The position numbers and the translations under genes were made by a program. The notes under the pieces are model-generated. The model was not told the origin of the DNA, searched no databases, and was given only the letters and a program-made list of their open reading frames with translations. This document shows, piece after piece, positions 2,554 to 29,648 of a stretch of DNA of 64,000 nt (position 1 is the first letter of the stretch; the number at the start of each line of letters is the position of its first letter). Origin of the DNA: Verrucomicrobiota bacterium (GTDB lineage Bacteria > Verrucomicrobiota > Verrucomicrobiia > Methylacidiphilales > UBA1321); NCBI GenBank assembly GCA_013286145.1, contig JABDGH010000005.1, positions 1 to 64,000 of the forward strand, read 5' to 3'.

Positions 2554-5500
2554 ATGCCCGATCTCATCTCCTTCCTGACCGATGTCGCTCTGCGCAGTTC
2601 GCTCATTTTGGCGGTTATTTTTGTTTTACTTTTCGTGATGAGTCGGGCCTCGGCCTCAGAACGTCACTTGGTGATGCTTCTGGGCTTGCTCGTTGTGGCG
2701 TTGATACCGGTCGGTTTGCTCTTAAGTCCAAAAATTTCATGGAAGATTCCCTTTCCGCAACAGGCGGAAGTCATGGTTGTTCAAAAAGTAGTCAGCCCTG
2801 TTTTGGAAGAAGGCAGAAATTCGAACGTGCCTCTTTCTTCTTCCGCTATTGAGAGCAAATTTTCTCCATGGGAATTGCTTACGTACGTCAATGGCTTGGG
2901 TACGCTGCTGGGTGCAGGCATGTTGGTGCAAATCATGATCTTGGGACGCGTAGGTTGGTCATGGTGGAAAGTTCGACGTCAGGTCGTGCAAACGCCCCTA
3001 TCCAACGAGGCACTTGATCAGGCGCAGACTTTTGCCGGGAAGAAGGGGATGCCTCCGATTTTTATTTCCGATCAAGTGACGGTTCCGATGCTGGCTGGCT
3101 GGTTGCGACCCGCGATCATTCTTCCGGTCGAAGCGCACAAATGGCCAGCGAAACGTTTGTCGATGGTTCTCTGCCACGAACTCGCCCACTTCAAGCGTGG
3201 TGACGCCTGGATACTCCCTCTCCACTGGCTTCTGCGCATCCTTTACTGGTGGCATCCGATGGTCTGGCTCGCACTGGCTCGACTGCGGCGTGAACGCGAG
3301 AACGCCTGCGACGACCTGGTGCTGAATCAAAATTTCCGGGCCACCGATTATGCCGACCTTATTGTTTTCACGGCACGGCAGATGCGAAGCATTCACTGGC
3401 AAAACGGAGCCCTGGCCATGGCGTCCCCCTCGCATCTCGGAGAACGCATTCGGGCGATCCTCGATCCCTCCCTCAATCGCCGTCCGGCAAGCCGAACTAC
3501 TGGCTTCACCGGCCTCATCCTCGCCTTCTCCCTTGGTTGGCTCTTCGTTGCCGCCAATATTCAGGCCGAGGACAAGCCCGTAATGCCTGAATCAATTATT
3601 GCCACAAACGCATCGGAGCCACAAATAAAACTCAGCTTCAAATTGGTCGAAATCGATGAAAAAACTTATTTGCAAAAAACCAAGGTAATCGATGAGGCCG
3701 TAAAAAACGGTAATATGACTATCTTTTATAATATGCCGGGAGCTTCATTATTATCAGCTCCAAGCGTGACCACGGACTGCGGTATAAAAGCAAGTATCGG
3801 ACTTACAAAAAAGTATTCGATTGAAGACGATGGAGACTCCAATAAAAAAGCCTCATCCCCAATTCACGATATGAATGTCGGAGTCGAGGCCATGATCACG
3901 CCATCTCTTTCTGCGGACGGTAAGATTCGGCTTACATGGAAAACCAAGGTCATCGGAGTCTTGAATGGCGCGGAGGAACCAGAACCCCATTTTTACGTCA
4001 ATGGTAATTCCACACGTAATGCATCAAGCGACAAGTGGGCTTTTTGGATTAATGATGCCAACCTCAGATACAATTATAGTTTGATAGGCTTGATGAACGG
4101 TACCGGCGACAAACTAAAGTTATCCGATCTAAAAAAATCACCCAACCGACTTGCGCTCTTCATAACGGCTCATCTTGTGCAGCACGATGTGGGTGCGGCT
4201 CCGGTTCCCGCTCCAGCCGTGAGAATGTCGCCTGCGCCATCAGGGCCGGGACCTCGGATCGACATGGGCGTGACCTTCGTGGAAATCGAAAAAAAGATGT
4301 ACGAGCAACAGGCCCAGGCGATGGATAAAGCGGTCAAAAATGGTGATGTTCATTTTTTCGATAACCGGGAGGGCGTTGCCGTGGTTCCCAATGCCAAAGT
4401 CAGGTTGGCGGTGGGAAAGCCGGGGTGGTTCTCCAATGGTAAAGTCTTCTCTTACGTTAGCTGCTCAGTCTCGACTGAAAAGAAGGATGGAGTGGCCCCC
4501 ACCACCACGTTAACTGCCAATGCCGTGTTTATCGGCGTCAATGCCGACTTTACCTCCTCAGTTTCTCCCCAAGGCGGCATTCTGCTCGATTCGTCATTCC
4601 AGGTAACCGAGATGCTCGGGTACGATAAATTGGCCTCGAGTTCCGACCGCTATCCGAAGCCTGAATTCCGTGTCACCACTTTCAAGGACAAGAATTGGAA
4701 GATGGCACCGGGAAAAGAGCATGGCTTTTGGGTTAGTGCAACGGATGGCTCGATAAAAAACTGGGCCCGATCTGGGAGATGGCCTGCGTCGTTGGATGAG
4801 ATGATAAAATCCAAGTCGCCATCCCGACTCGCCGTATTTATGCACGCGGAACAGATAACCTCTTCCGCAGGCGTCCGGCCTACCGACCAACCAGCGACGG
4901 CGGAATCAACCGCTGCTAATGGAATGACCCATCTTGTGGCAGACGACGCGAGTATGGTTCCAATCAATCCGCCTGATCCGGCTAAAACAACGTTTTATAC
5001 TCAAATGGAATACTTTGAAATTGACGAAAAGACCTATGCGCAGAAACCCGATGCCACTGAGGTGGCATTAAAAAAAGGTGATATTTCGTTCTTTCGTCAG
5101 CTTGGAACCTTTCGCATTTTAGCGTACCCGGCGGTATATACGAAAGTTAATTGCAAGGCCGTTATCCAGGTTCTTAAGCCGTTTTCTTACCCCGATAAAT
5201 TCGTTCGGGATAATAATGGTAAATTTATTCCGTCTGGAAAAACGAATGACCGGAAATGTGGCATCACGGCGACGATACTTCCCTCGCTCTCTGCCGATGG
5301 CAAAATTTCGCTTGGTTATACTGACGAGATCACCATGTTTGCGGGATGGCTCGAAAAGCCGTCTGGTTCTGGTGAAGAATCGCCCATCTTCAATGTGAGT
5401 GCCGGAGCTTCCAAGAAGCTGGCTCTGGCCGATGGAAAGCCACAGGGCTTGTGGGTGCGGACGAATTCCCCCGGCCTGGATGAAATGATAGGCTTGAAAA

Positions 5501-5586
5501 AAGGAGTCCCCAGCATTCCGTCAATAACTGCTCCTCCGGTAAGAATTGGCGTGATCATAACCGCCAGCAAAGTAAATCAGCCTTAG
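2554..5586 (+). CDS. BlaR1-like M56 membrane metallopeptidase with three repeated secretin-like modules
   Basis: The ATG at 2554 gives 1010 residues; an open frame reaches back to 2203 but overlaps the BlaI gene out of frame. Two hydrophobic helices (about residues 10-60) and another near 120-135 precede the M56 zinc motif HELAH at residues 208-212 and the third-ligand region ERENACDD near 249-254. A further membrane helix lies near 315-335. The exported C-terminal part is unusual: three copies of a ~200-residue module begin near residues 355, 568 and 811. Each opens with a 'F.E(I)(D/E)EK.Y' strand and has a later 'I.PSLSADGKI.L'-like strand in modules 1 and 3. The layout recalls the C-terminal secretin domain. 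It would act as signal-sensing protease for the BlaI repressor; the module function is inferred. Confidence 0.82.
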   Translation: MPDLISFLTDVALRSSLILAVIFVLLFVMSRASASERHLVMLLGLLVVALIPVGLLLSPKISWKIPFPQQAEVMVVQKVVSPVLEEGRNSNVPLSSSAIESKFSPWELLTYVNGLGTLLGAGMLVQIMILGRVGWSWWKVRRQVVQTPLSNEALDQAQTFAGKKGMPPIFISDQVTVPMLAGWLRPAIILPVEAHKWPAKRLSMVLCHELAHFKRGDAWILPLHWLLRILYWWHPMVWLALARLRRERENACDDLVLNQNFRATDYADLIVFTARQMRSIHWQNGALAMASPSHLGERIRAILDPSLNRRPASRTTGFTGLILAFSLGWLFVAANIQAEDKPVMPESIIATNASEPQIKLSFKLVEIDEKTYLQKTKVIDEAVKNGNMTIFYNMPGASLLSAPSVTTDCGIKASIGLTKKYSIEDDGDSNKKASSPIHDMNVGVEAMITPSLSADGKIRLTWKTKVIGVLNGAEEPEPHFYVNGNSTRNASSDKWAFWINDANLRYNYSLIGLMNGTGDKLKLSDLKKSPNRLALFITAHLVQHDVGAAPVPAPAVRMSPAPSGPGPRIDMGVTFVEIEKKMYEQQAQAMDKAVKNGDVHFFDNREGVAVVPNAKVRLAVGKPGWFSNGKVFSYVSCSVSTEKKDGVAPTTTLTANAVFIGVNADFTSSVSPQGGILLDSSFQVTEMLGYDKLASSSDRYPKPEFRVTTFKDKNWKMAPGKEHGFWVSATDGSIKNWARSGRWPASLDEMIKSKSPSRLAVFMHAEQITSSAGVRPTDQPATAESTAANGMTHLVADDASMVPINPPDPAKTTFYTQMEYFEIDEKTYAQKPDATEVALKKGDISFFRQLGTFRILAYPAVYTKVNCKAVIQVLKPFSYPDKFVRDNNGKFIPSGKTNDRKCGITATILPSLSADGKISLGYTDEITMFAGWLEKPSGSGEESPIFNVSAGASKKLALADGKPQGLWVRTNSPGLDEMIGLKKGVPSIPSITAPPVRIGVIITASKVNQP

Positions 5587-5945
5587 TCTGTCTTCCTCAC
5601 ACACAACGGCTGCGTCTGCGTGATCCATTCGGTCACGGGTTGGCCTGCGATGACGTGCTCTTGTAGAATCCGCTCGCAGCGCTCCACCGTCATTCCGCCG
5701 TACCAGGTGCCTTCGGGATAAATCAGGAGCCACGGGCCGCCGACACAGATGCGAAAGCAACTGGCCTTCGTCCGCATCACGGGAAGATTCAATTCAGCGC
5801 ATCGCTTCTTAAGGTAATCCCAGACAACCTGGCCTTCATCGAGCGGCGCGCAATTGGGGCCGAGACACAGAAAGAGATGGCGCTCGGCCTGCGCCACATG
5901 AGCCGCGTCCAACCCCTCGCTGACGGATTTGTATTTTGCGGGCAT
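5583..5945 (-). CDS. Thioredoxin-like (2Fe-2S) ferredoxin domain protein
   Basis: This is a 120-residue protein of the thioredoxin-like 2Fe-2S ferredoxin family, as found alone or in NuoE/HydA-like subunits. HLFLCLGPNC supplies Cys27 and Cys32, and SCFRICVGGPW supplies Cys63 and Cys67. The following LIYPEGTWYG is the usual family strand-turn. These proteins carry one [2Fe-2S] cluster in the cytoplasm; the redox partner is unknown. The gene converges with the M56 gene and the two 3' ends overlap by four bases. It sits just downstream of the PIN toxin gene on the same strand, with only two bases between them, which may be a chance of packing. Confidence 0.85.
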   Translation of the reverse strand: MPAKYKSVSEGLDAAHVAQAERHLFLCLGPNCAPLDEGQVVWDYLKKRCAELNLPVMRTKASCFRICVGGPWLLIYPEGTWYGGMTVERCERILQEHVIAGQPVTEWITQTQPLCVRKTD

Positions 5946-5947
5946 TC

Positions 5948-6364
5948 TTATTGTTCAACAAACGGATTTAAACAATCGACGCCGGAACGCTCAACATCCG
6001 GCTTATTGCTGGTGACCAGCGTCAGTCGATGGTGCAGCGCGGTGGCAGCGAGAAGGCCATCCACGGCGGGCAAGCGCGCGTTGATCGACAACCCTCCCCA
6101 GATATCGCAAATCTCACCCGTGACGGGCAGGATGCGCTGGTCATAAATGGCCTCCACTTCGTGCAGCCATTTTTCCAAGACGAGTGCCGTGGCAACATCC
6201 CTGATTCGGCATATTTCGACACCACGTCGGATTTCACCCATGACAAGCACGCTGGTAAAAAGTTCCTCCGCAGGAGTGGCCTCAAACCAATTCCGCACCG
6301 AACGTGAACACCGTTCGATCTTGCGCAATTCCGAGACGACATTGGTATCGAGTAAAAAGCCCAT
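5948..6364 (-). CDS. vapC: PIN-domain toxin ribonuclease (VapC/FitB type)
   Basis: This 138-residue PIN-domain protein would be the toxin of a type II toxin-antitoxin pair, cleaving RNA with a Mg2+-dependent acidic site. The first acidic residue is in FLLDTNVVSEL near the N terminus, the second in VLVMGEIRRGVE, and the third in LPAVDGLLAATAL, followed by LTLVTSNKPDVE. All three PIN positions are present, so it looks intact. It follows the antitoxin gene with nine bases between them. The NVVSELRK form and the partner type resemble FitB of the FitAB subfamily. Its RNA target is unknown. Confidence 0.88.
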   Translation of the reverse strand: MGFLLDTNVVSELRKIERCSRSVRNWFEATPAEELFTSVLVMGEIRRGVEICRIRDVATALVLEKWLHEVEAIYDQRILPVTGEICDIWGGLSINARLPAVDGLLAATALHHRLTLVTSNKPDVERSGVDCLNPFVEQ

Positions 6365-6373
6365 GGATGAGCT

Positions 6374-6616
6374 TTAGGAGAGATCGACTTCGCGAGGCAT
6401 GTCCCGTGGGCGTTCGAAATCCGCGTCATCGCCCACATTGGGCATCGTCAGCAGAAATTCCTTAAAGTTCATTTTGGGAAGTTGGGATTTTCCGGTGAGC
6501 GAACTGCGCAAAATACGGCGATGCTCCTCTTCCATCGACACGCCGTCCTCGGCGGCCTTCCGCTTTAATTTACGGACGACAGATTCCTCGATGTTGCGGA
6601 CGATAAGCTGGGCCAT
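6374..6616 (-). CDS. Ribbon-helix-helix antitoxin (FitA/StbC type)
   Basis: This 80-residue protein begins MAQLIVRNIEESVVRKLKRK, the ribbon strand and first helix of a FitA-like Arc/MetJ fold, followed by GVSMEEEHRRILRSSL as the second helix. The remaining acidic tail (MPNVGDDADFERPRDMP) is the likely toxin-binding segment. FitA-type antitoxins neutralise the PIN toxin and repress their operon as a complex. A near-perfect dyad lies just upstream (6624-6646), which fits that role. Length and order (antitoxin first) are typical. Confidence 0.87.
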   Translation of the reverse strand: MAQLIVRNIEESVVRKLKRKAAEDGVSMEEEHRRILRSSLTGKSQLPKMNFKEFLLTMPNVGDDADFERPRDMPREVDLS

Positions 6617-6623
6617 GTCTGCA

Positions 6624-6646
6624 AAGTGCTATCAATGATATCACTT
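6624..6646. promoter_or_regulatory. Candidate toxin-antitoxin operator dyad
   Basis: AAGTG-c-TATC and GATA-t-CACTT form an inverted repeat with one mismatch around an AAT centre. It starts eight bases upstream of the antitoxin ATG. Ribbon-helix-helix antitoxins bind such dyads to autoregulate. Assignment is by position and symmetry. Confidence 0.5.
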
Positions 6647-6657
6647 GTCAAGCTGGC

Positions 6658-7626
<969 letters not shown>

Positions 7627-20799: not shown

Positions 20800-22167
20800 T
20801 TAAAACTGGACGATGGTTCGCAGGCCGAGGATGAGGATATCGCCACGGTGCATATCACCGCTGGGATTGATGATGTCCTGGATGTCGGGCTGAATCGAAA
20901 GCCATGGCATGGGATTGTACTGGTAGCCAAGCTCCAGGGTGGTTTCACCGCCGAGACCATGACCGAAGGCAGTGCGATAAGCCGAGCTGAAAGCCGTGCC
21001 GATATCGGAATAGATGACGCCGAAATCGACCTTGTCTTCATCGCGGCCCGGGATCAACCCCGTGTAACGACCGCCGAAGGTAATCTCGTATTGGAGGGGA
21101 TTGCGATCACCAGGCGCCCCGATAAATTCAGAAACAAGATCGAGACCTTTCGCGGTCTGGAGCTTTCCATCGGCGCCTGTCGGATGATAGACCGTCTTTT
21201 CCACCACGCCATAAGCGTTGTAATCACCACGGTAAGTTTCCCCCGTGTAGGGATTCATGTAGCTCAACTCGTTTCCGTTGAGACCCGCTTTGTAGAGGCC
21301 CGGATAGGTGGCGTTCTGTTCGTTGTAACCGATTTCAAATGCAGCGGCCATGCCATGATTAAAATCGTCCGAGTAATAGATGCCGTTGGAGTCGGGCCGG
21401 TAGGGATTGTAGTAAGCGGTAAACGCACCAGCTTTGACGTAGAGACCCTTCGTAAGATCGGAAAGATCGCCGGTGAGAATGATGCCGGGTTTACCAGCGG
21501 GACTGAACGACTGCTTGATGTTGTAGAGGGCATCTGGCGCATAGGCCAATTCATCATTGACGAAAACGTCGTAAAAATCGGTCGCGCCAAATTCGCTCGA
21601 CGCAGCCACCTGGCCAAACTTGACCTTGAACATGTTGTCGGCAAACCCCTGCTGATACCATAATTGATCGATGCGCTCGCTTTCCTCACCACCAACACTG
21701 CTGGTGAACGTATTGACGTGGTAGGGATTGCCGAATGAACCGTGCCCATCGGGATATTGAGCAGTATTATTCCGTCCATATTGCCAGAGCCCGGTGAAGA
21801 AAAACTCGCCATCGACGTCTGCCAGCTTCTTGAAATTGATATCGACGATGCCGCGAAAACGACCGTCATAAGTCGCATGATGCTCCTGGTTGCCAGTCAT
21901 GTCGCCCTGCAAGTCGCCAATATTGTTGAGAACGAAAATGATGCCTTCATTCGCCAGCTTTGTTCTTTCACCACCCCAATCGCCCAGAAGATATTGCTGG
22001 GATAAAATCGACGGCTCCGGCTGTTGAAGCGCGGGAGTAATCTCTTTCATGCCCTTGTCTGTGTCAGCGCGGACATTCGGATTAACCATGAGCAAAAGAC
22101 CCAAGACGGTGATAAGCGTATTAGCTATTTGACACGGATACATTGAAGGAAAGATACTCGATTTCAT
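20800..22167 (-). CDS. OprB-family carbohydrate-selective porin
   Basis: This 455-residue outer-membrane beta-barrel starts with a signal peptide (ITVLGLLLMVNPNVRA). QQYLLGDWGGERTKLANEGI is the OprB signature (LLGDWGG.R..L...G). The barrel ends with alternating strands LGYQYNPMPWLSIQPDIQDI and the terminal aromatic residue in TIVQF, as needed for BAM-dependent assembly. OprB porins bring glucose or other sugars across the outer membrane. It is likely co-transcribed with the downstream SDR and controlled by the divergent regulator at 22485. Confidence 0.9.
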   Translation of the reverse strand: MKSSIFPSMYPCQIANTLITVLGLLLMVNPNVRADTDKGMKEITPALQQPEPSILSQQYLLGDWGGERTKLANEGIIFVLNNIGDLQGDMTGNQEHHATYDGRFRGIVDINFKKLADVDGEFFFTGLWQYGRNNTAQYPDGHGSFGNPYHVNTFTSSVGGEESERIDQLWYQQGFADNMFKVKFGQVAASSEFGATDFYDVFVNDELAYAPDALYNIKQSFSPAGKPGIILTGDLSDLTKGLYVKAGAFTAYYNPYRPDSNGIYYSDDFNHGMAAAFEIGYNEQNATYPGLYKAGLNGNELSYMNPYTGETYRGDYNAYGVVEKTVYHPTGADGKLQTAKGLDLVSEFIGAPGDRNPLQYEITFGGRYTGLIPGRDEDKVDFGVIYSDIGTAFSSAYRTAFGHGLGGETTLELGYQYNPMPWLSIQPDIQDIINPSGDMHRGDILILGLRTIVQF

Positions 22168-22484
22168 TTGTTATGTTTTGGGGGTTAGTTGTTTGTATCG
22201 CAATGAGAACTCAAAATAAATATATAATTTTCGGCTAGCCTCTAAAAGAGAAGACATCTTTTTGCTGGCTAAAACAGGTAGTGTCGTGGCTAGCATCACG
22301 ACGATCATGAGCGATAGCGAGCTAATCATTCAATAAATATTTCCTAATTTGTCATTTCAAGCCTCCATTTGAACGACCCTTATTTTCATAATACATGTCA
22401 TTTGGGTAAGTCTTGAACAAATAAAAAGTAATTGGATACATAGATTTTTCTTGTTTTAGATACATTAGATGCAATAGTACGGAC
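22168..22484. promoter_or_regulatory. Divergent control region of oprB and the GntR-LacI gene
   Basis: This 317-bp AT-rich gap separates the oprB and regulator starts and must carry both promoters. Three related ATACAT-containing sites lie near the regulator start: AATACATGTCATTTG (22389), GGATACATAGAT (22434) and AGATACATTAGAT (22458). The last two are 24 bases apart, about two helical turns. They are candidates for operator half-sites. A small hairpin, GTCGTG...CACGAC, lies at 22282-22301. No match to a known GntR operator was recognised. Confidence 0.45.
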
Positions 22485-23585
22485 GTGTTGATCAATCAAA
22501 AACAAACCGCTCGAGCTAACCTCGCCGCTGCACTAACTCAGGAAATTCTGAGCAATCCTGAACTAGGCAGCTTTCCCATTGCCAGTGAACATCAGCTGTG
22601 CCGGCGCTTCAAAATCAGCCGTGTTACAGTCCGGCTCGCACTCGGAGACTTGGAAAATAGGGGTCTCATTTATCGTAAACATGGTAAGGGTACTTTTGCT
22701 CATGGACGGTCGAAACGTGTTCACAAGGCAATAGGCACCCTGTTGAAGACTCCTCACATGGTAGAACACAGGCCGATTGCCGAGATTATGCGGGGAGTGC
22801 AGAGCGTCCTGAGCTCTCAGCGTTTGAGCGCCATGATGATCTGTATGCCACCCGAGGAATGGACGTCCGAAATGGCCAGCAGCCTCGGAGGTGTCATCGT
22901 CTTCCCCCAGGATGTCACCTCAAAGGATATTGATGTCTTAAGAAATCGGAAGTTGCCCTATCTGCTGGTTGGAAAGACGGATCTGCCCGGACCACAAATT
23001 CGATTTGGACAGATCGATGCGGCGCGCGTGATGACAGAGAAATTATTACAGCTCGGCCATCAGCATATCGCACTTTTGACCGGATATGACCCGCTTCTTG
23101 ATGCGCAAAAACGCACGGGCGTGCATCAGGCCTTGCGTGCGGCAGGCATCGATCCGGCCTCAGTACCTGAAATTTCAGCCCAAGGAGAAGAAAGCGACAG
23201 GCTCAAGGCCGTGTCCGATTTGCTCAAGCTGGAGCCGCGCCCGACAGCGGTGCTGGCTTTTGATGACAGCCTGGGTTCATTGCTGAGCTTTTATGCCCGG
23301 CGCCATGAAAACATCCGGGTTCCCGAGGATCTGAGCATCGTAGGCTTTCATGACATTCCTTATCTTCGTTATTTCGAGCCGATGATAACCACCGTGCGAT
23401 TCGAATTTTTCAAGGCAGGTCAGCGCGCAGCCGAAACTCTCAATCATGCGGCCATCACAGGTGAAGAGGCGAAAAATCTGGTCTTCGAGCCGGTCTATTG
23501 CCCGGGACAGACTCTTATCCCCAACCGAAGCAATCCGTGGAGTGTGGAAGAGAATCTGTCCGAAGCTTTAGCCACTTCTCTTTAA
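22485..23585 (+). CDS. GntR-type HTH fused to LacI-type sensor domain, transcriptional regulator
   Basis: This 366-residue regulator starts at GTG 22485. Residues ~10-75 are a GntR winged helix (ASEHQLCRRFKISRVTVRLA and LENRGLIYRKHGKGTFAHG). Residues ~95-345 are a LacI/periplasmic-binding-like sensor: EIMRGVQSVLSSQRLSAMMI, GGVIVFPQDV, LPYLLVGKTD, LGHQHIALLTGYD, DQ-like RTGVHQALRAAGID, AVLAFDDSLGS and LSIVGFHDIPYL. This AraR-like fusion senses sugars in the cytoplasm. It is divergent to the OprB porin and SDR genes, so control of carbohydrate uptake is a reasonable inference; repressor or activator action is open. Confidence 0.88.
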   Translation: MLINQKQTARANLAAALTQEILSNPELGSFPIASEHQLCRRFKISRVTVRLALGDLENRGLIYRKHGKGTFAHGRSKRVHKAIGTLLKTPHMVEHRPIAEIMRGVQSVLSSQRLSAMMICMPPEEWTSEMASSLGGVIVFPQDVTSKDIDVLRNRKLPYLLVGKTDLPGPQIRFGQIDAARVMTEKLLQLGHQHIALLTGYDPLLDAQKRTGVHQALRAAGIDPASVPEISAQGEESDRLKAVSDLLKLEPRPTAVLAFDDSLGSLLSFYARRHENIRVPEDLSIVGFHDIPYLRYFEPMITTVRFEFFKAGQRAAETLNHAAITGEEAKNLVFEPVYCPGQTLIPNRSNPWSVEENLSEALATSL

Positions 23586-26325: not shown

Positions 26326-26408
26326 GTGTCGCAAAATAGGGCCGGAAAGGGTCTCGTGCAATAAAAAAATATGAACATATCTGGATGCGTGGATATTTAA
26401 ATGTCATC

Positions 26409-26450
26409 CCGTGCTTGTTTGGAGCTTGGTAGAAGTGATTGCGCTGTTAG
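26409..26450 (+). repeat. R1: left partial copy of the 60-bp array repeat (3' half only)
   Basis: GTTTGGAGCTTGGTAGAAGT followed by GATTGCGCT matches the 3' half of R2 and R3 with few differences. The 5' half (AAACTGACCCACTACGGGAG) is missing. It begins the array of three small-ORF units between metK and the polyprenyl synthase gene. Confidence 0.75.
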
Positions 26451-26459
26451 ATTAATGGA

Positions 26460-26636
26460 GTGAAGGGCTACCGAGTTGCCATTATTCTGTGGGTCTTATT
26501 CGGGCTGATTTCAGCCTATGTTTTGTTTGGCGGATCCATTTGGGGACTAACCCGAGGGGAATCAATTTTTGTCGTTGTCTTATTTCTCTTCGAGCGAGTA
26601 GCTATCAATATCGTTCGGTTTTTGAAAGATCACTAG
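26460..26636 (+). CDS. 58-residue two-helix membrane protein (array unit A)
   Basis: A GTG at 26460 opens a 58-codon frame. The product has two hydrophobic helices, VAIILWVLFGLISAYVLFGG and ESIFVVVLFLFERVAINIV, joined by a short loop and ending in RFLKDH. A GGAG lies directly against the GTG, so the true start may be a nearby non-ATG codon. The frame fills the space between repeats R1 and R2 almost exactly (stop at 26636, R2 starts at 26637), which supports it as the cargo of the first unit. Function is unknown. It is AT-rich compared with metK. Confidence 0.5.
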   Translation: MKGYRVAIILWVLFGLISAYVLFGGSIWGLTRGESIFVVVLFLFERVAINIVRFLKDH

Positions 26637-26700
26637 ATTTAAACTGACCCACTACGGGAGTAGTCGATCACGTTTGGCGCTTGGTAGAAGTGATTGCACT
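26637..26700 (+). repeat. R2: full copy of the 60-bp array repeat
   Basis: TTTAAACTGACCCACTACGG, then GAGTAGTCGATCAC, then GTTTGGCGCTTGGTAGAAGT and GATTGCACTTTT. The first part contains the small hairpin ACTAC-GGGA-GTAGT inside a wider TGA...TCA symmetry. It differs from R3 at about six of 60 positions. Confidence 0.85.
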
Positions 26701-26762
26701 TTTGGCCATGCACGCGAGCATGGCGCAAAATGATTGCACCCAATTGTCCGACTACAGAACTA

Positions 26763-27182
26763 ATGGAAAAACTCAAGTGGGGATCTACGTGGCGTTTGTT
26801 CGGCTTGATCCTTATCACCTATTTCATCTACATGGTCTATTATGCTCGGCGCCAAACGATTATCTTGAATGCATACTCCCCTTCGGAGAAACAGATCGGT
26901 TTGGCTTTTTTTCGCTGGTGGTTTATCATCACTTATAGCTCGCTAGCTCTTTTCTTCGTGTATCTCTTTGTGCCAGATGATAGTCCGTGGGTCACAATCA
27001 GTAATCTTTTTGATCATCTTGATGGCTTACTCGCACTGATTTGGGCGTTTAGAGCGCGGAGTAGCTTTCATCGTCTCATGCTGTCGGAAAAAGGCACGCC
27101 CTACTGGTTCAACGGCATTTGGACCTTCCTGTTCCAAGCTCTCTACATTAACTTTAAAATCAATCGGCTTCTAAAAAAATGA
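26763..27182 (+). CDS. DUF4234-like small membrane protein (array unit B)
   Basis: The ATG at 26763 gives 139 residues. The N terminus, MEKLKWGSTWRLFGLILITY and FIYMVYYARRQTI, follows the pattern of DUF4234 membrane proteins (short amphipathic start, helix with TYFIY, then a basic Y.ARR turn). Further helices are WWFIITYSSLALFFVYLFV and a C-terminal GIWTFLFQALYINFKIN. An upstream in-frame ATG at 26694 reads through repeat R2 and a hairpin, so it is not used. The gene is AT-rich and lies between repeats R2 and R3. Its function is unknown. Confidence 0.72.
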   Translation: MEKLKWGSTWRLFGLILITYFIYMVYYARRQTIILNAYSPSEKQIGLAFFRWWFIITYSSLALFFVYLFVPDDSPWVTISNLFDHLDGLLALIWAFRARSSFHRLMLSEKGTPYWFNGIWTFLFQALYINFKINRLLKK

Positions 27183-27241
27183 AGCACCTAACACAGGCTT
27201 ATCCACCTAACTAGAGAGAGAAGTAACAAGCTTCTTTAAAT

Positions 27242-27307
27242 TCAAACTGACCCACTACGGGAGTAGTCGATCATGTTTGGAGCTTGAAGGAAGTGATTGC
27301 GCTTTTG
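27242..27307 (+). repeat. R3: full copy of the 60-bp array repeat
   Basis: TTCAAACTGACCCACTACGG, GAGTAGTCGATCATG, TTTGGAGCTTGAAGGAAGTG and ATTGCGCTTTTG. It carries the same ACTAC-GGGA-GTAGT hairpin as R2. It is followed at once by a hairpin, TTGAAC-TGAATT-GTTCAA. The last codons of the minus-strand unit C gene lie inside the repeat. Confidence 0.85.
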
Positions 27308-27656
27308 AACTGAATTGTTCAAGTGCGTTGCTCAGTGCGGCCACCACTTTTTTGCGCTTTGGTTCTTCTCGGAGATACAGAGGAAGTTGCTCAAACCAAG
27401 TTTGAAACTCCCAATGAGAACCTCCCCTAGCGTCAACTCGAGTTGTGGGCTGAATTTTGTGCGAGTAAAACAAAAGACACTCTTCGATCTGGAAGATATT
27501 GTGAAATTCAAAAGTAAAGGAGCACACACGAATAAAGTAGACATCTGCTGACAATAAAGTGGGAGCCTGTTGTACCTTATCGCAAATACCTCCAAGCGTC
27601 GGCATGTGATTATTATGCCGAGCGGCATCCCACTTTTCCTTCCATATACGAGCCAT
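27255..27656 (-). CDS. Hypothetical 133-residue protein (array unit C)
   Basis: This soluble protein is read from 27656 on the minus strand. It starts MARIWKEKWDAARHNNHMPT and has aromatic, alternating segments (YFIRVCSFTFEFHNIFQIEE). The C-terminal part has an amphipathic helix region: FQTWFEQLPLYLREEPKRKK followed by VVAALSNALEQFSSKA. The final ~15 residues (QSLPSSSKHDRLLP) are encoded by the R3 repeat itself, so part of the protein end is made from the repeat. No family was recognised. It runs opposite to units A and B. It is AT-rich. Confidence 0.55.
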   Translation of the reverse strand: MARIWKEKWDAARHNNHMPTLGGICDKVQQAPTLLSADVYFIRVCSFTFEFHNIFQIEECLLFYSHKIQPTTRVDARGGSHWEFQTWFEQLPLYLREEPKRKKVVAALSNALEQFSSKAQSLPSSSKHDRLLP

Positions 27657-27696
27657 ATCGTGAGCCTAACCGCGAAGAGCCAGTTATCAACTTAGT

Positions 27697-27735
27697 TCAA
27701 ACTGACCCACTACCGGCGTGAGGCTTGGTTTGACC
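27697..27735 (+). repeat. R4: right partial copy of the 60-bp array repeat (5' half only)
   Basis: TTCAAACTGACCCACTACCG keeps the 5' half, then the sequence departs (GCGTGAGGCTTGGTTTGACC). The 3' half found in R1-R3 is missing. It closes the array next to the polyprenyl synthase gene. TTTGACCCG a few bases later is a weak second echo of TGACCCA. Confidence 0.7.
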
Positions 27736-28835: not shown

Positions 28836-28970
28836 CGTCATCCCGAGCTTGTCGAGGGATCAGATCAGCAAGGTAGCCGCCGCTGGCCCAGCGGCGGTGC
28901 CTCCCGGTAGGGACGCGAGTCCCTTCGCGTCCCATTAATAATCAGACGGCATGGGATTACCGTCCCTATC
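28836..28970. repeat. Palindromic repeats: family 1 half-unit plus family 2 hairpins
   Basis: 28836-28863 is a family 1 unit (CGTCATCCCGAGCTTGTCGA, GGGATCAG). Next, CCGCCGCTGGCCCAGCGGCG G (28876-28897) and GGACGCGAGTCCCTTCGCGT CC (28911-28932) form two hairpins. An outer pair, GGTAGGGACG (28906) and CGTCCCTATC (28961), encloses the second. The layout resembles the GTAGC-type family 2 copies at 34433 and 44016. It lies between two convergent genes. Confidence 0.75.
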
Positions 28971-29400
28971 AAAATTTGACTTTTAATCCCGCACGCCGGG
29001 CCAATTCCGTCTGTCTTCGATCAAAAGTCAAAAACTCATTGGCGCCCAGGACAACGGCTGAGGCCACGTGCAGGAGGTCGCCCGAGCGGACGCCAACCTC
29101 AGTAAGATGAGCCTCGGCCAACCGTTCCGCTTCGCGCAGGACATCGGCCCAAACCAGCGGTGTGTGCCGGAGAATGCCGTCGCTGAGATCTTCGTCGATT
29201 TGACGGAAAGCGGTTTGGAGATAGGCCGGGGTAAGTTCATTTCGAAAGACGCGGAGGCGAAGAGCCGTTCTCACCTCAAGCCGATGGAACGGAGTAAACG
29301 GGACGGAAGCCGTTATTCCATTCAGATAGCGGTGTGCCAGGGCAGTTTGTTCTTCGTCTACGTAGATCGAGACCAGAAAGCTGGTATCGGGATAGATCAC
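28969..29400 (-). CDS. vapC: PIN-domain toxin ribonuclease (second locus)
   Basis: This 143-residue PIN protein has Asp5 in MIYPDTSFLVSIYV, a glutamate in FHRLEVRTALRL, an Asp in VRSGDLLHVASAVVL and a last Asp in FLTFDRRQTEL. The full acidic set predicts an active Mg2+-dependent RNase. The ATG overlaps the TGA of the preceding Phd-like antitoxin gene by four bases. It belongs to a different PIN subfamily from the toxin at 5948 (the GDLLHVASA form). RNA target is unknown. A minor frame artefact in the opposite strand should be ignored. Confidence 0.88.
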   Translation of the reverse strand: MIYPDTSFLVSIYVDEEQTALAHRYLNGITASVPFTPFHRLEVRTALRLRVFRNELTPAYLQTAFRQIDEDLSDGILRHTPLVWADVLREAERLAEAHLTEVGVRSGDLLHVASAVVLGANEFLTFDRRQTELARRAGLKVKF

Positions 29401-29648
29401 CAGGGACTTTCCTCGCGCATCATCAACACAGAATTACCGGGCAAAACTTTGCCGCCGTAAAGCTCCTTGAGTTTCTTCATCCGCGCTTTGGCATCGAAGC
29501 GGACTCGCTTGCGTTTGGGCTGGGCCATGGGCACGAGACGGGCCAGCGGCACTCCACGACTGGTGATTTCCACTTCCTGTCCATCCTTGATCCAGTTGGA
29601 AACCTTGGCGAAGTGATTGCGCAGATCCCGGACTGTCGCGGTTTTCAT
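29397..29648 (-). CDS. Phd/YefM-family antitoxin
   Basis: This 83-residue protein starts MKTATVRDLRNHFAKVSNWI and continues with GQEVEITSRGVPLARLVP, the DNA-binding fold of Phd/YefM. The basic C-terminal segment (KRKRVRFDAKARMKKLKELY) binds and neutralises the toxin. It is placed before the PIN toxin with ATGA overlap. A perfect inverted repeat overlaps the start region upstream (29650-29671), as expected for autoregulation. Confidence 0.88.
   Translation of the reverse strand: MKTATVRDLRNHFAKVSNWIKDGQEVEITSRGVPLARLVPMAQPKRKRVRFDAKARMKKLKELYGGKVLPGNSVLMMREESPW

Follow-up and report, generated by a model that had tools for sequence, protein, structure and literature searches.

The array lying between metK and the prenyl synthase gene in the window (the whole 64,000-nucleotide stretch analysed) very probably consists of three adjacent, left-truncated mobile insertion cassettes (MICs) derived from IS1-family transporter insertion sequences, judging from sequence comparison. 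An IS1-family element supplies both halves of its repeat: its right inverted repeat (RE) makes up the 5' half (TTCAAACTGACCCACTAC), and the in-frame end of its transposase gene the 3' half (...GVVDHVWSLEEVIALLD-stop). The original prediction had listed remnants of IS ends as an alternative, and this was essentially correct.

We detected two 71-nt direct repeats, 89% identical, at 26634-26704 and 27237-27307, together with a 33-nt copy of the right part (26416-26448) and a 24-nt copy of the left part (27696-27719). Each part had three matches in the window, against 0.03-0.13 (left part) and 0.00 (right part) expected from shuffling. The predicted ~60-bp repeat with half-copies at the array ends is therefore real and far beyond chance, the three ORFs between the copies were located (58, 139 and 133 aa), and the array indeed has no adjoining recombinase gene. 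In R2 and R3, the RE that closes one unit meets the stub that opens the following one; R1 consists of just a stub and R4 of just an RE. Because the repeat halves are a transposase end and an RE, the unit of the window reads as transposase stub, one small ORF, RE (Table 1). No left inverted repeat was matched on the + strand of the window units, which have right ends only; R1 is preceded by native metK-upstream DNA, and no target duplication was found around the array as a whole. No sigma-70 promoter was found in the stub in the window. An RNA element was rejected, as Rfam matches in the window comprised one tRNA only.

Table 1. Positions of the array features in the window
Feature	Position	Strand	Remarks
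R1, unit 1 transposase-gene stub (VWSLVEVIALLD-stop)	26417..26455	+	without left end
Cargo 1, 58-aa hydrophobic ORF	26460..26636	+	GTG start 4 nt past stub; stop 1 nt ahead of RE
RE1, right inverted repeat TTTAAACTGACCCACTAC	26638..26655	+	nearly identical to the right end in autonomous IS1-family elements
Unit 2 transposase-gene stub (GVVDHVWRLVEVIALL)	26656..26705	+	abuts RE1; RE1 and stub form R2
Cargo 2, 139-aa membrane-type ORF, from ATG	26763..27182	+	
RE2, right inverted repeat TTCAAACTGACCCACTAC	27241..27258	+	
Unit 3 transposase-gene stub (GVVDHVWSLKEVIALLN-stop)	27259..27313	+	abuts RE2; RE2 and stub form R3
Cargo 3, 133-aa ORF, opposite strand	27255..27656	-	
RE3 (R4), right inverted repeat TTCAAACTGACCCACTAC	27696..27713	+	

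The part common to R1, R2 and R3, read in frame, is (GVVDH)VWSLEEVIALLD-stop, the C-terminal end of the transposase, and longer stub copies in congeners read like FIRVHQSLRVTTAMEAGVADHVWSLEEVITLLG. Full-length relatives are ORFs of 275-297 aa; G000, the genome to which the window belongs, has two (C67 and C9), and others lie elsewhere. They match DDE_Tnp_IS1/transpos_IS1, and plasmid homologues carry the annotation 'IS1 family transposase'. The C67, C9 and G011 proteins scored 28.5-37.5 bits against PF03400, over its gathering cut-off of 24.1, and the best NCBIfam match, NF033558, reached 59.6-73.6 bits, under its 100-bit cut-off, indicating that these transposases are divergent IS1-family members. 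Neither full transposase of G000 bears the exact stub sequence. Autonomous elements with the exact RE were found in other phyla: in L133, L148 and L130, from MAGs labelled Nitrospirae, Natronospirales and Proteobacteria, the exact 18-base RE lies 51 nt beyond the DHVW codons and overlaps the transposase stop codon.

The previously noted ACTAC-GGGA-GTAGT hairpin is present as sequence, but it arises by chance where the RE (..CACTAC) meets GGGAGTAGTCGATCAY, the transposase codons for G V V D H; GGGAGTAGTCGATCAC encodes GVVDH (compare GCGGGCGTTGTCGATCAC in G006:C134). Its fold has only a slight advantage over shuffles (z -1.35 and -1.57), and a REP/IS605-type hairpin element was ruled out, the hairpin being fortuitous. 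A separate hairpin, GGCCATGC-ACGCGA-GCATGGC (26704-26730; z -2.2 against shuffles), lies directly past the unit 2 stub and before cargo 2.

An intact element of the parental kind is present in the same genome. C67 carries an intact 3.2-kb IS1-family element (about 3443-6671; L019) in the order left end, ~410-aa gene, transposase, 109-aa passenger and right end, with an exact 8-bp target duplication, GGAAAATC, on both flanks. Larger elements L138 (TCGGCGCG), L148 (CGGGCGCG) and L103 (TGGAGGCT) likewise have 8-bp duplications, as does L205; terminal inverted repeats with 8-9 bp target duplications, which characterise the IS1 family, were thus found in C67, L138, L148 and L103. Complete cassettes without a transposase were also observed. 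In C36 of G000, a left end, stub, 116-aa cargo and right end are flanked on both sides by AAACTCTG, and target duplications flank L050 (G006:C66; GGTTTTTGG), L074 (G002:C120; GAAGCGTT), whose inner left end is diverged and was at first missed by the left-end matrix, and L136 (GCCGGTCG). The flanking duplications of L083 (G005:C35) and L128 match at 7/8 positions each. All six cassettes hold a passenger between two IS inverted repeats without a transposase, as in a MIC. The window units have right ends only, so the array represents truncated MIC derivatives and not complete MICs.

Some of these elements carry further genes. The ~410-aa gene upstream of the C67 transposase is HTH/metallopeptidase-like. 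L103 (G007:C2:179500-184500) contains a Fic-like 401-aa gene and a GIY-YIG-like cargo, with ~56 transposase codons remaining. A homologous protein of ~100 aa (..ETFQGKTVWEGEVEVF..) lies near IS1-family transposase genes in L101, L102 and L100 (G011:C284, G007:C8 and G001:C92); it matched no Pfam or NCBIfam family where tested and is apparently a recurrent partner gene in this transposase subgroup.

To survey the genus, we searched with a sequence model of the stub at a threshold of E <= 0.05, at which the weakest matches may be chance. The results showed matches in 7/8 congeners, ~59 in all, with 21 in G006 alone. Named matches came from MAGs of Ca. Methylacidiphilales, Verrucomicrobiales, Limisphaerales and Pedosphaera and from a few other phyla. 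Only five full transposases occurred across the genus, and G006, G004, G002 and G003 had none, counts that are subject to MAG incompleteness; G000 is itself a MAG, 66% complete. We catalogued 47 non-redundant units, mostly from the congeners. In the median unit, the longest ORF takes up 91% of the interval between stub and RE, compared with a median of 42% and a 95th percentile of 74% in shuffles. The gaps between stub and ORF and between ORF and RE have a median of 10 nt each, the cargo is co-oriented with the stub in 43/47 units, and in several units the RE itself provides its stop codon (..SN-stop).

The cargo is diverse: besides one overlap within the window, only two related pairs were found. 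Pfam matches are few (DUF2007, DUF3800, HicB-like, MqsA, WG repeat and some weaker ones), and the 50 cargo ORFs examined include 36 with a membrane-like segment, a raw count without a baseline. Defence genes were considered and rejected, the PADLOC matches being weak and single. Cargo 2, described earlier as DUF4234-like, matched no Pfam family; among 388 genomes of the phylum it has only two homologues, both distant (34% and 32%) and each from a remote genome, around which no RE match rose above background, and cargo 3 has no relative in the same set. The three ORFs are therefore not a block always fixed in order. A search for other arrays with different ORFs between the same repeats had been suggested, and a second array was found at G000:C33 (about 21838-23560; L015 3840-5560), plus other units elsewhere. 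Its four cargos are a DUF2007 zinc-ribbon ORF, a 63-aa ORF, a DUF3800 protein and a small minus-strand ORF, and its RE/stub joints fall at other stub positions than those of the window.

In a parent element, the left inverted repeat (GGTAGTGGGTCAGTTTGAA) is followed by the transposase gene, a single passenger gene and the right inverted repeat. We propose that the transposase is then mostly deleted, so that the ends, its last ~20-35 codons and the passenger remain. Such MICs probably move in trans, acted on by an IS1-family transposase that is supplied from another locus and duplicates 8-9 bp at the target. In the window, the left ends would then have been lost, and the RE/stub junctions may have arisen by transposase-driven adjacent deletion, which is documented for other IS families (PMC11708052) and would create such joints; alternatively, a new unit may have inserted beside an old RE.

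Most catalogued units have no detectable left end and so are at most candidates for current mobility. Left boundaries crowd towards the end of the ~275-codon transposase gene, within its final ~35 codons: 37 codons or fewer are kept in 31/46 units, with a pile-up at about 17-37, and the exact position varies by unit. Either left ends were lost while the cargo was kept, or the stub may serve as the left border. A scattered REP-like repeat of the GTCATCC(T/C)GAGCTTGTCGA type recurs in these genomes (L011, L012, L123 and the window at about 26402) and edges some of the truncated units.

The pile-up near the transposase 3' end would be expected if that sequence (around GGAAGCGGGC...GATCACGTTTGG) acted as a left end, which we regard as rather unlikely; we give the same low weight to the related proposal that bare stub-cargo-RE units are themselves mobile and stack into arrays when one lands next to an RE. 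In L211, an exact 8-bp duplication, TTGTTGCG, directly adjoins a stub that has no left end, but this is the single clear case. Window unit 2 is flanked on both sides by GGGAGTAGT, but the homology of R2 and R3 makes this flank ambiguous. Furthermore, complete cassettes possess a true left end, the boundary differs from unit to unit, and selection keeping cargo with its expression signals could also yield the pile-up.

Loss of left ends in most units, the lack of a target duplication round the window array and the predominance of cargo without known function would also fit ordinary degraded IS copies, their ORFs being chance frames or decaying, unselected passengers. We consider this improbable, since the ORFs fill the interval from stub to RE far beyond shuffles, the homologues of cargo 2 in distant genomes are full-length, REs and stubs are still well conserved, and some cassettes retain both ends with exact target duplications.

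Serial insertion of circular units at a ~60-bp site by a recombinase acting in trans would explain the single ORF of each unit, the common borders, and the placing of complete junctions within the array and of half copies at its edges. It is nevertheless highly improbable given that one half codes for the transposase end and the other is an IS end, that complete copies have inverted-repeat ends with 8-9 bp target duplications, a DDE transposase signature and not one of the circular-cassette entry originally envisaged, and that single units are scattered across genomes. The junctions (ACTAC/GGGAGTAG in R2 and R3 of the window; TCTACC/GTTTGG and CTGCCC/TTGGAG in C33) differ between loci, unlike what site-specific recombination would produce. 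As the original prediction stated, integron core sites are absent: no attC sites with R''/R' core boxes border the units, and core-like stretches are RE plus transposase codons. An attC-like reading of R2-R4 (AAAC...GTTT pairing) was rejected, as the GGTTTGACC partner in R4 is native prenyl-synthase-upstream DNA and junction spacing varies between arrays. No feature here requires an integron or circular-cassette recombinase. Of the proposed recombinase-in-trans cassette locus, what survives is separate passenger modules with shared borders and an enzyme that presumably lies elsewhere; the single ~60-bp recombination site does not.

MICs and transporter insertion sequences are already established. 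MICs, such as MIC231 (Bacillus cereus) and mic-qnrD (Proteeae), hold one or more passenger genes between IS inverted repeats, with a target duplication and no transposase, and MIC231 is mobilised in trans by the IS231A transposase (PMC3913671). The complete cassettes described here share this structure, and their movement in trans would be a further likeness. They differ from MIC231 and mic-qnrD in that the parent is an IS1-family element, a transposase 3'-end stub is kept beside the cargo, nearly every unit has a different single ORF tight against the RE, and dozens occur in one genus, also in short arrays. Transporter insertion sequences (tIS; Siguier et al. 2009, IS1595 family), cited in the ISsaga paper (PMC3129680), carry extra passenger genes that have no role in transposition. 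The C67, L214, L138 and L148 elements fit that description, whereas the transposases here score best to IS1 rather than IS1595, albeit under the NCBI cut-off, and the passenger of most units has a constant position between transposase stop and RE. The Tn3-family TnXax1 of Xanthomonas (PMC6304161) similarly has different passenger genes in different copies, but belongs to another family, and the passages of that paper describing it mention no transposase stub beside cargo. Integron cassette arrays are alike in having one small ORF per unit, mostly of no known function, unrelated genes and an enzyme in trans; here, in contrast, there are IS inverted-repeat ends and 8-9 bp target duplications and no attC-like site. 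The literature searched, covering part of the IS literature, contained no description of an IS1-family MIC set like the present one. What is notable here is the number, uniformity and cargo diversity of the units and the left-boundary pile-up.

Tentatively, and with a likelihood well below even, these units might be a DDE-transposase equivalent of the integron cassette pool, in which IS1-family elements repeatedly take single small genes, often for membrane proteins, at a fixed spot, shed the transposase but retain its final ~20 codons as a functional left border, and so move one-gene cassettes about verrucomicrobial genomes and stack them there. The proposed MIC set would show that cassette-style build-up of tiny unknown genes needs no integron, a plain IS family with its transposase in trans being sufficient. 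The signature of a DHVWSLEEVIALLD stub, one ORF and TTCAAACTGACCCACTAC offers a way to find many unannotated small mobile genes, and makes testable by what route single ORFs come to enter an IS again and again in the gap from its transposase stop codon to its right end.

Finally, we compared the locus with its congeners. In all seven, metK and the prenyl synthase gene lie on separate contigs, and none has the two genes adjacent as an empty site. Homology of the metK-upstream DNA to congeners ends near 26402, and native prenyl-synthase-upstream DNA resumes near 27716. The split of the two genes in congeners, with native sequence ending at the array edges, indicates that the array marks a rearrangement point (synteny breakpoint). 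Since the window units have no left end and lie at this breakpoint, they are probably immobile now; the array would then be a relic whose small genes may or may not serve the host. Just downstream of the prenyl synthase gene, on the - strand (28969-29648), a PIN-domain protein gene adjoins a Phd/YefM antitoxin-like gene, forming a VapBC-type toxin-antitoxin pair.
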